A stretch of DNA of 64,000 nucleotides from Geovibrio ferrireducens. Its GTDB lineage: Bacteria; Chrysiogenota; Deferribacteres; Deferribacterales; Geovibrionaceae. Below, piece after piece: positions 192 through 52,592 of this stretch. The translations under genes and the position numbers were made by a program. Each line of letters begins with the position of its first letter. The stretch's first letter is position 1. A model generated the notes under the pieces. It did no database searches, was not told where the DNA came from, and worked only from the letters and a program-made list of their open reading frames with translations. The stretch lies in assembly GCF_026226615.1 (NCBI RefSeq), contig NZ_JAJAPB010000002.1, positions 248,001 through 312,000 on the forward strand, in the 5' to 3' direction.

Positions 192-264
192 AGATGTTTC
201 TCAGTTCTTCAATAACACAATGACTGCTTGGTTTTATAGAGTTTAATGTTGATGCTGCTGTGGC

Positions 265-334
265 AGCCCCAATGACGGGGCTACGCCGTGCACAGCGAAG
301 CCGAACTGTGTTCGGCGCGAGCGTGTACATCAAA
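265..334 (-). repeat. Modular hairpin element, copy A
   Basis: Read on the minus strand this carries ACACGCTCGC, a hairpin with 7-bp arms GCCGAAC/GTTCGGC (300-306 with 310-316), the spacer TTCGCTGTGCACGGCG, and a hairpin AGCCCC/GGGGCT (265-270 with 77-82 of the same hundred, i.e. 277-282). The first module seen in other copies is reduced to its right arm (AAGTTTGATGT). Related copies lie at 19335-19430, 30495-30585 and 52441-52538 with different but still complementary arms. The 192-524 interval holds only this element and the next one; I see no gene in it. Confidence 0.75.
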
Positions 335-7973: not shown

Positions 7974-8010
7974 TAAAAAAAAGGCCGCTCCATTGAAAAG
8001 AAGCGGCCTT
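7974..8010 (-). terminator. Rho-independent terminator of the glutamate synthase operon
   Basis: Stem AAGGCCGCT (7981-7989) with AGCGGCCTT (8002-8010) and a 12-base loop. On the minus strand it runs directly into a run of eight Ts. It lies 49 bases beyond the stop of the last glutamate synthase gene and upstream of pstS. Confidence 0.85.
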
Positions 8011-8058
8011 AATCTGTCGTATATTTTATTTCCCTAAATCTATAAGCTGTTTATATAT

Positions 8059-19334: not shown

Positions 19335-19430
19335 ACATCAAACTGCACGTCCTGTCAGTTTGATGTACACGCTCGCGGCGGGGTGAACCCGCCTTCGCTT
19401 CGCACGGCGCAGTCCCTGTCCTTGGGACTG
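19335..19430 (+). repeat. Modular hairpin element, copy B (complete)
   Basis: Module 1 is an 11-bp perfect stem (19335-19345 with 19356-19366) with loop CACGTCCTGT. Then comes the linker ACACGCTCGC. Module 2 is GGCGGG/CCCGCC (19377-19382 with 19388-19393) with loop GTGAA, then TTCGCTTCGCACGGCG. Module 3 is CAGTCCC/GGGACTG (19410-19416 with 19424-19430). The 19305-19672 interval contains no gene: two frames crossing it are made only of repeat sequence. Confidence 0.85.
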
Positions 19431-19436
19431 TTTTGC

Positions 19437-19517
19437 GTCATTGCGAACCCTGAAAGGATGAAGCAATCTCTCTGTATATTTTAGAGACTGCCACGTTGCT
19501 GCGCTCCTCGCAGTGAC
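19437..19517. repeat. 81-bp long hairpin repeat, second copy
   Basis: This is the inverted counterpart of 357-437: GTCATTGCGA at one end and TCGCAGTGAC at the other, with GAAGCAATCTC and GAGACTGC flanking an AT-rich centre. It abuts module 3 of copy B, the same neighbour relation as in the first cluster. Confidence 0.75.
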
Positions 19518-19545
19518 ATAAACTGTTGTCATTAAACCGCGCAGC

Positions 19546-19617
19546 CCTGTCAGTTTGATGTACACGCTCGCGACTGTTTTGCGTCATTGCGAACCCTGAA
19601 AGGGTGAAGCAATCTCA
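19546..19617 (+). repeat. Internally deleted tandem copy of the composite element
   Basis: Bases 19546-19572 repeat 19351-19377 exactly (27 bases). They jump straight to the module 3 right end and the following hairpin repeat (GACTG, then the CATTGCGAACCCTGAAAGG region), which repeats 19426-19470 with one change. So this is copy B with modules 2 and 3 deleted and only half of the 81-bp repeat. Confidence 0.75.
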
Positions 19618-25210: not shown

Positions 25211-27328
25211 ATGAGAAGACTTTTATCGGTTTTTGCGGTGATTCTGCTAGCTGCTCTCTTTACAGGCTGCAACGGCAGTTCAGGCAGTAAGCAGCCAGCG
25301 GAGCACCCTTACAAAGGTTATTACACAGGTGTATATTCAAGCCCGTCAGTTTCCGGTTTATGGGAATTTACCGTTAACAATGAGGGTAAAATTTCCGGCA
25401 TTGCAGAAGATCACAATAACTCCTACGCCCTGACAGGCAGTGTTGACAGTTCGGGCAACGCCGAAGTCGAAGGAGTCACGGCTTTTTCATCCTTGAGAGA
25501 CACAGGGGATATTTCTTTCAGCCTGAACCTTAGCTCAGGGACAATAACAGGTACATGGAACAGCGGAGGAAGCTCCGGCTCCCTTGTGGGGCTGAATAAG
25601 ACAGAAACACGCCCGGCAGGCAACTCAGCTCCGGTAATAAGCGGCACTCCACAGACCGGAGTTACCTCAGGCACTGCATACAGCTTCACTCCAATATCCT
25701 TTGATGCCGATGATGACACACTTACCTTCCGCATATCGAACAAGCCTTCGTGGGCGGAATTTGATAATACAACAGGAACCCTCAGCGGAACACCGCAGAC
25801 TGCGGCGGAACACAGCAGCATAATAATAACTGTATTTGACGGTAAAGGAGGTTATGCCTATCTGCCGCATTTCAGTATAACGGTCAATCCCGCTAATACT
25901 GCTCCGGAAATATCAGGAACGCCGCAGACCGCCATAACTGCCGGTTCCGCATACAGTTTCACACCCACGGCCAATGATGCGGATCATGACACCCTCACTT
26001 TCAGTGTTAACATTACTCTCCCCGCATGGCTGAGTTTCAGCACATCCACCGGAGCACTCACGGGAACTCCTTCAAACAGTGATGAAGGAACGATCAGCAA
26101 CATAATTATAAGCGTATCTGACGGGCACGGCGGTTCTGACTCACTTGCCGCTTTCAGCATAACCGTTAACCGCCTGAACACAGCTCCCACAATAAGCGGT
26201 ACGCCTGCCGCAACGGTAACTGTCGGTTCAGCCTACAGTTTTATACCAACCGCAAGTGATGCCGATGCGGGAGACACCCTGACTTTCAGTGTTAACATTA
26301 CGCTTCCCGCATGGCTGAGTCTGGACAACTCCACAGGTATACTTTCAGGCACGCCGACCTCCGGAGACACAGGCACTGTAAGCAACATAATTATCACAGT
26401 ATCAGACAACCACGGGGCAACCGACTCACTCGCTGCTTTCAGCATAACGGTTGAGCCCATTCCCGTGTTTACCGTTAAACAGACAGGTCAGACAGCAACC
26501 TACGCAGATTATGACGATGGTTGGTACAGCGCAGGAGCAGCTCCGGACTACACCAGAGCAAACAATGTAGTAACAGATCATGCAACAGGGTTTATGTGGC
26601 AGGATGATACGGATGCATGGGACAACGCAGCCAGAAAAACACTGCCGGACGCAGTGAGCTACTGCGATAACCTCACTCTTGGAGGCTATGACGACTGGAG
26701 AGTGCCCAGCTTCCGCGAGCTTGAGTCAATAGTCGACTACGGAAGAAATGAACATACAATCGATCCGATCTTTCAGAATATTGCTCCTAATGATTACTGG
26801 CTCACATCCTCATATCTGTCATCAACAGCTTCATCAGCCAGTGCAGGCGATCAGCATATCTTACTCTTCACAAGCGGTCAGCAATTCTCATACATGAACA
26901 ACGGGGCTTACTTTGTCCGCTGCGTGAGGGGTGCTGAGCTGCAAAGCAGTTTCACCAGAAGCAACGATGATATTGTAACTGACCATGCAGCAGGTCTGAT
27001 GTGGCAGGATAACAGTGAAGCGGCAACAACTCATCAGGTCTGGGAGAATGCCATTAACTACTGCGAAGCCCTCACACTAGGAAGCTACAGCGACTGGAGG
27101 CTGCCTAATATCAGAGAACTGCAAACAATAATTGATTTCAACACATACAATCCATCTATTTACTCTGTTTTTCAGAATAAGGCCCCATACACATACTGGT
27201 CATCAACCGGACAAACAGCTTCTAATGAGCAAGGAGCCTGGAAAATTTCATTTTATAACGGATTAGCAGACGTAAGCTTCAACACAGACGGCTTCTATGT
27301 CCGCTGCGTACATGACATGATTGAGTAA
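25211..27328 (+). CDS. Lipoprotein with three putative-Ig/cadherin-like repeats and two DUF1566 (Lcl-type) domains
   Basis: 705 residues. The signal peptide ends in the lipobox LFTGC (Cys at about 20), so it is a lipoprotein. After a 110-residue beta-rich domain come three related repeats starting near 138, 228 and 323 (NTAPxISGTP ... TLTFSV ... ATDSLAAFSITV), of the He_PIG/dystroglycan-cadherin-like type. Two DUF1566 domains follow at about 430-577 and 583-705, each with TDHATGFMWQD or TDHAAGLMWQD, a DWRxP segment and a final FYVRCV or YFVRCV. DUF1566 is the C-terminal domain of Legionella collagen-like adhesin; surface adhesion is plausible. Repeats 2 and 3 are nearly identical in DNA over about 50 bases, so they duplicated recently. 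Confidence 0.88.
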   Translation: MRRLLSVFAVILLAALFTGCNGSSGSKQPAEHPYKGYYTGVYSSPSVSGLWEFTVNNEGKISGIAEDHNNSYALTGSVDSSGNAEVEGVTAFSSLRDTGDISFSLNLSSGTITGTWNSGGSSGSLVGLNKTETRPAGNSAPVISGTPQTGVTSGTAYSFTPISFDADDDTLTFRISNKPSWAEFDNTTGTLSGTPQTAAEHSSIIITVFDGKGGYAYLPHFSITVNPANTAPEISGTPQTAITAGSAYSFTPTANDADHDTLTFSVNITLPAWLSFSTSTGALTGTPSNSDEGTISNIIISVSDGHGGSDSLAAFSITVNRLNTAPTISGTPAATVTVGSAYSFIPTASDADAGDTLTFSVNITLPAWLSLDNSTGILSGTPTSGDTGTVSNIIITVSDNHGATDSLAAFSITVEPIPVFTVKQTGQTATYADYDDGWYSAGAAPDYTRANNVVTDHATGFMWQDDTDAWDNAARKTLPDAVSYCDNLTLGGYDDWRVPSFRELESIVDYGRNEHTIDPIFQNIAPNDYWLTSSYLSSTASSASAGDQHILLFTSGQQFSYMNNGAYFVRCVRGAELQSSFTRSNDDIVTDHAAGLMWQDNSEAATTHQVWENAINYCEALTLGSYSDWRLPNIRELQTIIDFNTYNPSIYSVFQNKAPYTYWSSTGQTASNEQGAWKISFYNGLADVSFNTDGFYVRCVHDMIE

Positions 27329-28788: not shown

Positions 28789-30428
<1,640 letters not shown>

Positions 30429-30483
30429 CTGTACCTTGTTAGCCGTTGAGAGCCTCAGCACCGTTTAGGATGTCAAGAATCTC
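30429..30483 (-). pseudogene. Duplicated 3' end of atpG
   Basis: 55 bases match 30579-30633 at 54 positions (G at 30468 against C at 30618). The block includes the last 15 or so codons of atpG with its TAA stop and 10 bases beyond. It lies downstream of the intact gene, separated by modular element copy C. It has no start of its own and is a non-functional fragment. Confidence 0.9.
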
Positions 30484-30494
30484 CTGTTTTGCCG

Positions 30495-30585
30495 GCACAA
30501 AAACAACGTCCTGTGTTTTTGTGCTACACGCTCGCGCCGTGGTAAACACGGCTTCGCTGCGCACGGCGAAGGTACATCCTGTACC
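30495..30585 (+). repeat. Modular hairpin element, copy C, inside the atp operon
   Basis: Module 1 is GCACAAAAAC/GTTTTTGTGC (30495-30504 with 30515-30524) with loop AACGTCCTGT. Linker TACACGCTCGC follows. Module 2 is GCCGTG/CACGGC (30536-30541 with 30547-30552), loop GTAAA, then TTCGCTGCGCACGGCG. Module 3 is GGTACA/TGTACC (30571-30576 with 30580-30585) with loop TCC; its right arm is part of the atpG-derived duplicate. It is antisense to the operon, but the hairpins fold in either strand. Confidence 0.85.
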
Positions 30586-30588
30586 TTG

Positions 30589-31446
30589 TTAGCCGTTGAG
30601 AGCCTCAGCACCGTTTACGATGTCAAGAATCTCATTGGTGATTGAAGCCTGACGCACTTTATTGTAAGTGAGCGTCAGTTTGCCGATCATGTCGGATGCG
30701 TTTCTGGATGCGTTGTCCATAGCCATCATCCTTGCACCGTGCTCACCCGCTGTGGATTCAAGCAGAGCCTGAAAAATCTTGTAGCGGATGTATCTGGGCA
30801 TAAGTTCGTTCAGAAGCATTTCGGGTTTAGGCTCGTAGATATATTCCACAAGCTGCTCGCCTGTCTCCTCAACTTTCAGCGGAAGAAGTTTTTCCGTAAC
30901 CGGTGTCTGCGATGCTGTTGATCTGAACTCGTTATAGAGTACGTAAACATCGCTTATACCGTTATTAAGGAACTGCTCCACAACAACATCGGCTATGCCG
31001 ACAGCGTCACTGAAAAGAACCTTGCCTGCGAAATCGGCATATTTCTCAATTATTTCAAAGTCTCTCTTTCTGAAAAACTCGTAAGCTTTCTTGCCTATGC
31101 AGACAAGCTTAACCTTTTTACCGGGGTGCTCGGAAGCAAACCGGGAAACGGCTTTCAGAATGTTGTTGTTGAAAGCGCCGCAAAGCCCTCTGTCGCTGGT
31201 TACGACTATAAGGCCTATGGTATCCGTGTTTTCATTACCTGCGAGAAACGGGTGAAGCTCAGGATTGGCTCTCTGAGCCACATCGTGAACCATCTCCGTA
31301 ATCTTGCGGGCAAAGGGTCTGGCGGCTGCCATAGCGTCCTGCGCGCGGCGCATCTTCGCAGCGGAAACCATTTTCATGGCTTTCGTAATTTTCTGCGTGT
31401 TCTTTACAGATGCAATTTTGCGTTTTATATCACTGGTTCCGGCCAT
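30589..31446 (-). CDS. atpG: F1 ATP synthase gamma subunit
   Basis: 285 residues. The N-terminal helix is typical (DIKRKIASVKNTQKITKAMKMVSAAKMRRAQ), as is VTSDRGLCGAFNNNI and the C-terminal helix with ASRNASDMIGKLTLTYNKVRQASITNEILDIVNGAEAL. It is the central rotor shaft. AAGGAG lies 7 bases before the ATG; it starts 11 bases after atpA. Its last 44 coding bases and stop are copied again downstream at 30429-30483. Confidence 0.97.
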   Translation of the reverse strand: MAGTSDIKRKIASVKNTQKITKAMKMVSAAKMRRAQDAMAAARPFARKITEMVHDVAQRANPELHPFLAGNENTDTIGLIVVTSDRGLCGAFNNNILKAVSRFASEHPGKKVKLVCIGKKAYEFFRKRDFEIIEKYADFAGKVLFSDAVGIADVVVEQFLNNGISDVYVLYNEFRSTASQTPVTEKLLPLKVEETGEQLVEYIYEPKPEMLLNELMPRYIRYKIFQALLESTAGEHGARMMAMDNASRNASDMIGKLTLTYNKVRQASITNEILDIVNGAEALNG

Positions 31447-52136: not shown

Positions 52137-52439
52137 ATGAAAAAATTAATCATCGTTCTTGCGGTAGTACTCACCGCGTCAATGGCTTTTGCCCATACTG
52201 CACTTATGGCATGCTTCGCAGAAGGTGAAGGCAAAGTGACATGCGAAGGCGGTTTCAGTGACGGCAGCAGCGCAGCGGGTTCAAAGTTCCGCGTTGAACA
52301 GAACGGAAAGACAGTATTCGAAGGCAAGTTTGACCAGAACAGCGAAATAACCTTCGCCAAGCCTGCCGGAGAATATCAGGCTGTGCTTGACGCTGGTGAC
52401 GGTCACAAAGTTATCGTGAAAAGCAAGGACATCAACTAG
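52137..52439 (+). CDS. Small exported protein in the second feo operon
   Basis: 100 residues. A Sec signal peptide (KKLIIVLAVVLTASMAFA) is followed by HTALMACFAEGEGKVTCEGGFSDGSSAAGSKFRVEQNG and a beta-rich remainder. The mature N-terminus begins with histidine, and two cysteines and the repeated VTCEGGFSDGS pattern could bind metal. I do not recognise a named family with certainty; it resembles small DUF4198-like beta-sandwich exported proteins. GAGGTG lies 5 bases before the ATG. Placement after feoB suggests a periplasmic iron-handling role (inference). Confidence 0.75.
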   Translation: MKKLIIVLAVVLTASMAFAHTALMACFAEGEGKVTCEGGFSDGSSAAGSKFRVEQNGKTVFEGKFDQNSEITFAKPAGEYQAVLDAGDGHKVIVKSKDIN

Positions 52440-52440
52440 A

Positions 52441-52538
52441 CAGTGCTTCTGCCTGCATCCTGCGGCATAAGCACACACGCTCGCGCCGTGATGAACACGG
52501 CTTCGCTTCGCACGGCGAGGCATACATCCCTGTATGCC
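52441..52538 (+). repeat. Modular hairpin element, copy D
   Basis: Module 1 is GTGCTT/AAGCAC (52443-52448 with 52469-52474) enclosing GCC-T-GCA-TCC-TGC-GGC, a TCC-loop hairpin. Linker ACACACGCTCGC follows. Module 2 is GCCGTG/CACGGC (52485-52490 with 52496-52501), loop ATGAA, then TTCGCTTCGCACGGCG. Module 3 is GGCATACA/TGTATGCC (52519-52526 with 52531-52538), loop TCCC. It lies directly after the small exported gene. Confidence 0.85.
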
Positions 52539-52553
52539 GGGGGAACAACCAGA

Positions 52554-52592
52554 CAGTGCTTCTGTCTGCATCCTGCGGCATAAGTACACACG
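52554..52592 (+). repeat. Direct repeat of module 1 of copy D
   Basis: 39 bases match 52441-52479 at 37 positions (differences at the bases corresponding to 52452 and 52472). The core of copy D is therefore flanked by a direct repeat, just as copy C is flanked by the atpG 3' end duplicates. Confidence 0.75.

Follow-up and report, generated by a model that had tools for sequence, protein, structure and literature searches.

The antagonist RNAs of the Csr/Rsm systems are encoded by one or a few sRNA genes, and CsrB has A(N)GGAX loops on several of its hairpins. RsmZ is likewise described as having several such hairpins (PMC4005645), and the same source gives the preference of RsmE as an ANGGAX hexaloop placed directly on a stem closed by a C-G pair, with an affinity that falls when the N is omitted, AGGA being weaker than ANGGA. 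For E. coli CsrA, the SELEX consensus is reported as RUACARGGAUGU (PMC6692469). Among interspersed repeats, YPAL/RU-2 of Yersinia is described as short, with internal inverted repeats and variable target duplications of 3-26 bp (PMC2229807), the pneumococcal BOX elements as modular, hairpin-forming, arranged as tandem modules and over-represented between convergent genes (PMC3049150), and REP/BIME, with its GTAG and CGTC families, as intergenic palindromes in high copy (PMC3733652). No interspersed repeat carrying CsrA hairpins was found among the titles and opening parts of abstracts that were searched, which included few subscription journals.

Here we describe a repeat family that came to attention at the atpG-atpD junction of Geovibrio ferrireducens. 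The whole stretch of DNA that was analysed, hereafter the window, is 64,000 nucleotides long and forms part of contig C2 of a 2.97-Mb genome (G000); the other two genomes of the genus are G001 and G002.

The doubled end of atpG and its surroundings

The sequence-only reading had reported that the end of atpG is present twice around a hairpin element, and this is what the window contains: two direct repeats, 54/55 identical (98%) and 150 bp apart from start to start, enclose a three-hairpin element, copy C (Table 1). Copy C is one member of a family of short interspersed repeats of about 105 nt, designated E, and the duplicated flanking block is designated F. The 3' end of atpG lies at 30589 on the minus strand (Pfam ATP-synt), so that the right block includes 45 nt of coding sequence. 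Judged from its length and identity, a 55-nt repeat with a single mismatch at such a spacing is no chance match.

Table 1. Repeat copies, hairpins and duplicated blocks located in the window
Feature	Position	Strand	Remarks
Element copy A (model part)	264..327	+	Stretch of 336 bp in the window versus 64 bp in G001
Element copy B (model part)	19366..19430	-	Four-element tandem array in G002; G001 without element
Copy B, second unit, truncated	19561..19595	-	Weak model match, E-value 0.026
E2, second dispersed element with a similar hairpin	30222..30402	-	Lies between the left F block and atpD
F, left (gene-distal) copy of the atpG 3' end	30429..30483		First ~10 nt identical to the right half of hairpin 3
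Element copy C	30484..30587	-	GGA-loop strand is the minus strand, the sense strand of atpG-atpD
Copy C, hairpin 1	30495..30524	-	Loop CAGGACGU, AGGA (short loop form)
Copy C, covariance-model match	30525-30587	-	77.8 bits
Copy C, hairpin 2	30536..30552	-	Without GGA; flanked by linkers CACGCTCGC (30527-30535) and TTCGCTGCGCACGGCG (30553-30568)
Copy C, hairpin 3	30569..30587	-	AAGGUACAGGAUGUACCUU, the CsrA SELEX consensus RUACARGGAUGU minus its R (AGGA form)
F, right copy	30579..30633		Continuous with the native coding end of atpG
Element copy D (model part)	52474..52538	-	Repeats 52433-52479 and 52546-52592 include hairpin 1

A further proposal was that atpG sequence supplied the right arm of hairpin 3. 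Two observations speak against this: the arm, TGTACC, is not present at the atpG site of the relative G003, and at fliM hairpin 3 is entire and lies 43 nt from the duplicated block. We read the start of the left block within the hairpin 3 loop of copy C as the leftover of an array unit, not as a hairpin 3 built from atpG. Copy D had been said to follow the same plan as copy C. Its direct repeat (52441-52479 and 52554-52592) is real, with 37/39 positions identical (47 nt at 94% when extended), but the repeated block is mostly the element's own hairpin 1 and in G002 is part of a 113-bp tandem period. Apparent duplicated flank is partly worn array, in copy D above all.

The sequence of copy C from hairpin 1 to hairpin 3 is identical between G000 and G002 at 92/92 positions with one gap, and the third positions of atpG are identical at 222/285. 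Recent exchange of that stretch is possible because its neighbours are also nearly identical, namely E2 (177/179) and the third positions at the start of atpD (93/98); over the whole of atpD, third positions agree at 84%. E2 itself has 15 matches in G000, 15 in G001 and 18 in G002, and none in G003-G005. Its hairpin (ACAGGAUGU) sits ~30-35 nt upstream of the atpD start, where the stretch that contains it folds no better than shuffled sequences.

Several other repeats and length differences were observed in the window. REP-like repeats (GTCATTGCGAAC...GAAGCAATCTC), 93% complementary over 59 nt, adjoin copies A and B (350-460 and 19424-19616), and a direct repeat of 180 bp with 74% identity and a spacing of 285 occupies 25988-26452. 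At 7977-8046, G002 and G001 have an extra 2,615 bp and 2,716 bp, respectively, without counterpart in the window. Rfam at gathering thresholds gave no match in the window, and a distant-mode search of phage records also gave no match.

Size and distribution of the family

The layout of E is hairpin 1, TACACGCTCGC, hairpin 2, TTCGCTNCGCACGGCG and hairpin 3, and the copies begin with a T-rich segment, up to about TTGATAA, that precedes hairpin 1. Within the genus, the exact pattern CACGCTCGCN{8,30}TTCGCTNCGCACGGCG had 85, 64 and 226 matches in the three genomes; it had none in 36 further genomes from the family and order, and the reversed control gave 0 in all 39. Among the candidates scored with a covariance model in these 39 genomes, there were six copies in G007, which belongs to another genus (g4), a single weak match in G036, and no match in the other 34; as up to 136 first-look candidates per genome were scored, G000 and G002 each have at least 136 copies, and weak copies elsewhere may be missed. 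The copies in G007 (L242 and L244-L248) keep the layout of E with different stems. One of the six, L242, has a 33-nt gene-start repeat on both sides (27/33 identical). In the GTDB 220 contigs, a set from which our own and near records are possibly absent, the exact pattern was found in 38 stretches, all from one MAG, Deferribacterales bacterium Deferri_01.

Duplicated flanks and tandem arrays

A first duplication test (38/60 versus 110/1,200) also picked up shared repeats and neighbouring units, and stricter tests replaced it. With F restricted to the outside of the element, a direct repeat scoring at least 20 was present at 23 of 112 loci, a total in which G002 is represented by 13 selected loci and orthologous loci are entered separately, and at 21 of these 23 it abuts the left, sharp terminus. 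The corresponding mismatched controls had a repeat in 68/4,430 cases and an abutting one in 27/4,430. At the 21 abutting loci, which include atpG twice and fliM twice, F is 26-71 nt long and the right spacer ranges from -4 (the search edge) to +43 nt. At the remaining 89/112 loci no flanking repeat reached this score, perhaps because one has decayed or because none was ever made.

The sites in relatives are the more direct evidence of what was duplicated, and element-free relatives with one flanking block were found at two loci, atpG and fliM. At atpG, there is one block in G003, which has no element, and one in G001, which has a remnant of E comprising 16 identical bases (score 16, with 0/2,000 shuffles as good), while G002 has copy C along with its duplication. 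An E remnant without a second F in G001 may mean that the duplication came later than the insertion, or that it has since been lost. At fliM, G003 and G004 have a single F between the upstream gene and fliM, the arrangement in G000 is F-E-spacer-F, and in both G001 and G002 it is F-E-spacer-F-E-spacer-F. Such loci, in which the F blocks outnumber E by one and the outer flanks are native DNA, fit a target-duplicating insertion followed by gain or loss of units. We also observed that at the fliM loci L091 (G000), L202 and L203 the duplicated block begins exactly at the fliM ATG; the left block copies are still preceded by the native upstream region and would give short peptides, and the full gene now starts behind the spacer.

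The duplication is real and recurs in a minority of copies, and the mechanism offered in the sequence-only reading, by which the element copies flanking DNA, was half right: the single blocks in relatives at atpG and fliM and the abutting repeats at 21/112 loci (27/4,430 in controls) speak for it, and the 89 loci without a repeat at the threshold answer to one half of the refuting test named in that reading.

Tandem [F+E] arrays differ in unit number between species. Two or more E copies occur at 45/112 loci, comprising 9/55 in G000, 24/44 in G001 and 12/13 in G002, where the array loci were picked for arrays. Contigs C2, C4, C6, C14 and C26 of G000 are among those that start within ~150 bases of an E copy, and assembly breaks may therefore undercount arrays. 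How common arrays are makes it necessary to weigh an account in which tandem duplication and contraction act alone, E and its adjacent DNA behaving as a minisatellite and F-E-F being a worn array. Consistent with that account, a truncated second E is present at the F-E-F loci L075, L082, L079 and L053, copies B and D, each a single unit plus partial repeats in the window, have several units in G002, where L082 is also an array, and the atpG site of G001 has a worn E with one F. However, F exceeds E by one at fliM in all three species, with native outer flanks and a single F in the outgroups; one tandem duplication cannot yield F-E-F, and fliM therefore counts against this account, as does the ending of F at the same element terminus in 21/23 loci. 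We consider it rather unlikely that tandem events alone produced these loci.

Possible routes of insertion

Because one end of the insertion is sharp, the other is ragged and the length of F is variable, we infer that insertion of E makes F through template switching or staggered synthesis, with no fixed-cut transposase. We favour template switching during replication over target-primed synthesis, and the resulting [F+E] arrays would then grow and shrink, with partial units remaining.

The same geometry could be expected of a SINE-like retroposon, in which E RNA is reverse-transcribed at the target to give a precise 3' end, a ragged 5' end and a variable duplication. Read on the GGA strand, the sharp end is indeed 3', and the variation of the other end and of F is as given above. 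Template switching accounts for these features equally, however, and a search for RVT_1 reverse transcriptases within the genus identified one in G001 but none in G000 or G002, and we regard retroposition as very unlikely. Movement of E by a resident transposase, in the manner of REP/RAYT pairs or of a MITE, would suit a short, non-coding, mostly intergenic, high-copy sequence that is rich in hairpins. Against this, a Y1_Tnp search of all three genomes of the genus found no such protein, the stems are not conserved, and F at 26-71 nt is not the fixed short target duplication of a MITE; a transposase-driven origin thus appears very unlikely.

Stems that vary and remain complementary

The linkers and loops of E are conserved, the linkers in part by construction, given that copies were located through them, while the stem sequences vary between loci yet remain complementary. 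When 36 chosen copies were aligned without gaps, 98.1% of 468 cells were paired, versus 65.9% after shuffling, and sliding the partner by 1-3 columns lowered the pairing to 34-44%. Stem changes in these copies were two-sided in 142 cases and one-sided in 1, with a covariation of 0.835 versus 0.197. The 36 were taken from 83 non-redundant copies that excluded other hairpin 2 lengths, copies without ACGGCG and hairpins 3 with fewer than 6/8 positions paired, so the pairing of hairpin 3 was selected; the arm-shuffling test used hairpins taken from folding, and their own pairing was likewise selected. Hairpin 2, which was unselected for pairing, showed 60 two-sided changes, 1 one-sided change and 3 unpaired among 216 cells.

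The rarity of one-sided changes suggests that the arms may also be copied from each other, by template switching that corrects quasipalindromes. DNA folds display the hairpins as well, and the folds do not separate the explanations. A comparison of G-U with A-C pairs in hairpin 2 leaned to the GGA strand (16 versus 6 of 550 pairs), with 12 of the 16 at one pair, and the asymmetry was absent in hairpins 1 and 3; the stems by themselves are therefore no proof that E functions as RNA.

GGA loops and the candidate CsrA sites

The pair of CsrA-type loops in E, which was absent from the sequence-only reading, is a more interesting point than the duplication. On the strand complementary to CACGCTCGC, A(N)GGA was present in the hairpin 1 region of 126/140 and the hairpin 3 region of 104/129 distinct copies, against shuffled means of 19.8 and 24.4. 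The other regions of the element and its surroundings had far fewer: 2/92 in hairpin 2 (shuffled mean 3.5), 22/172 in the left flank and 45/167 in the right flank, this last control exceeding its shuffled mean of 26, with some occurrences possibly being the next units of arrays. On the other strand, the motif was found in 16/140 hairpin 1 and 27/129 hairpin 3 regions. These counts are free of folding and were used alongside the parsed loops, which omit 140/192 hairpins 1 and 28/192 hairpins 3 that the ungapped fold did not place. Among the parsed loops, the GGA rule held in 44/46 of hairpin 1, 95/108 of hairpin 3 and 0/87 of hairpin 2; the folding-placed hairpins 1 and 3 had ANGGA in 29/46 and 79/108, AGGA only in 15 and 16, and neither in 2 and 13, respectively. 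Minimum free energy folding placed GGA in both hairpin loops of 112/187 copies, and the closing pair was C-G in 34/36 aligned copies.

Hairpins 1 and 3 of E thus follow the loop rule of CsrA/RsmE hairpins, namely A(N)GGA, preferably on a C-G-closed stem. The loops of copy C are of the short AGGA form, and hairpin 3 of copy D is an exact RUACARGGAUGU (AUACAGGGAUGU), a SELEX consensus that occurs exactly in only 2/108 parsed hairpins 3. By eye, A(N)GGA is kept in 5/6 hairpins 3 of the other genus (G007). A count of all GGA hairpins in samples of 64-80 kb revealed no general excess, with 15.3 and 15.0 per 100 kb in G002 and 2.5 to 7.8 in the other samples. A csrA gene is present once in each of 12 genomes of the family and in 17/21 of the genomes searched, and was not found in G013, G015, G018 and G020 of those 21. 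In G000 it overlaps fliW, and its product has relatives among CsrA-family proteins of solved structure, 2jpp being one.

The placement of E relative to genes was determined from calls made with our own codon-usage script. Of 116 distinct loci, with orthologous loci entered separately, 69 were co-directional with the GGA strand equal to the gene strand, 12 were co-directional and antisense, 27 were convergent and 8 divergent, whereas 103 sampled gaps of at least 100 bp comprised 62 co-directional, 33 divergent and 8 convergent. E therefore avoids divergent gaps and is oriented with the genes at co-directional sites. The ratio of sense to antisense at co-directional loci was 31:4, 26:3 and 12:5 in the individual genomes, a measure of orientation only, and an earlier run with fewer loci gave 63 sense versus 8 antisense; the fliM copy of E is an antisense case. 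For 16/22 convergent sites, the gene closer to E was the antisense one.

This placement could also be that of hairpins which stabilise or attenuate mRNA 3' ends and have nothing to do with CsrA, the GGA in the loops being coincidental or a DNA signal. E does lie at gene 3' ends, its enrichment between convergent genes (27/116 loci versus 8/103 gaps) is in keeping with such a role, and convergent placement is also reported for pneumococcal repeats (PMC3049150). We consider this explanation possible but doubtful, since A(N)GGA on stems mostly closed by C-G corresponds closely to the CsrA/RsmE rule, hairpin 2 in the same unit does not follow the rule, and the motif is kept in the other genus.

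Based on the loop rule, the orientation and the presence of csrA, hairpins 1 and 3 of E are considered paired putative CsrA-binding sites in mRNA. When transcribed, the two hairpins would present A(N)GGA loops on variable stems, the predicted paired sites would be located in mRNA 3' ends and intercistronic regions, and selection would preserve the loops and linkers while leaving the stem sequence free.

Comparison with known systems

The explanation that best accommodates these results, to which we assign a probability of about 0.6, is that E is a repeat family that arose at its sites by target-duplicating insertion, underwent array turnover and probably carries pairs of CsrA-binding loops into mRNA. 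A more far-reaching form, which we offer tentatively and hold to be doubtful as a whole, is that E is a mobile or formerly mobile repeat whose predicted cargo is the CsrA-hairpin pair, that it seeded many mRNAs and acts as a distributed sponge or builder of a regulon, that its insertion, with no recognised transposase, yields target duplications that are unusually long and vary in length, and that its stems are kept perfect by template switching between arms. If true, this would join small interspersed repeats, whose function is mostly unknown, to the global regulator CsrA, two subjects that are usually separate fields. The family offers a direct route to asking if a post-transcriptional regulon can be assembled from repeats. 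Its loci also include natural pairs of sites before and after long target duplications of variable length for which no enzyme is known, and its stems are a clear case of helices changing both arms together.

E resembles RsmZ and CsrB in having multiple A(N)GGAX-type loops. It differs from them in being about 105 nt long and in recurring at gene ends, where tens to hundreds of copies are scattered through a genome that also encodes csrA-fliW. With YPAL/RU-2 it shares its shortness, internal inverted repeats and a target duplication of variable length, but F is longer, at 26-71 nt, and E has three modular hairpins with changing stems and forms tandem arrays. In contrast to REP/BIME, E is a three-hairpin unit with changing stems, and a Y1 transposase was not found in the genus. 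Its modular hairpins, tandem modules and enrichment between convergent genes are features held in common with BOX; E, however, varies its stems while keeping its loops and linkers, and the A(N)GGA rule is one that we state for the E side of this comparison only.
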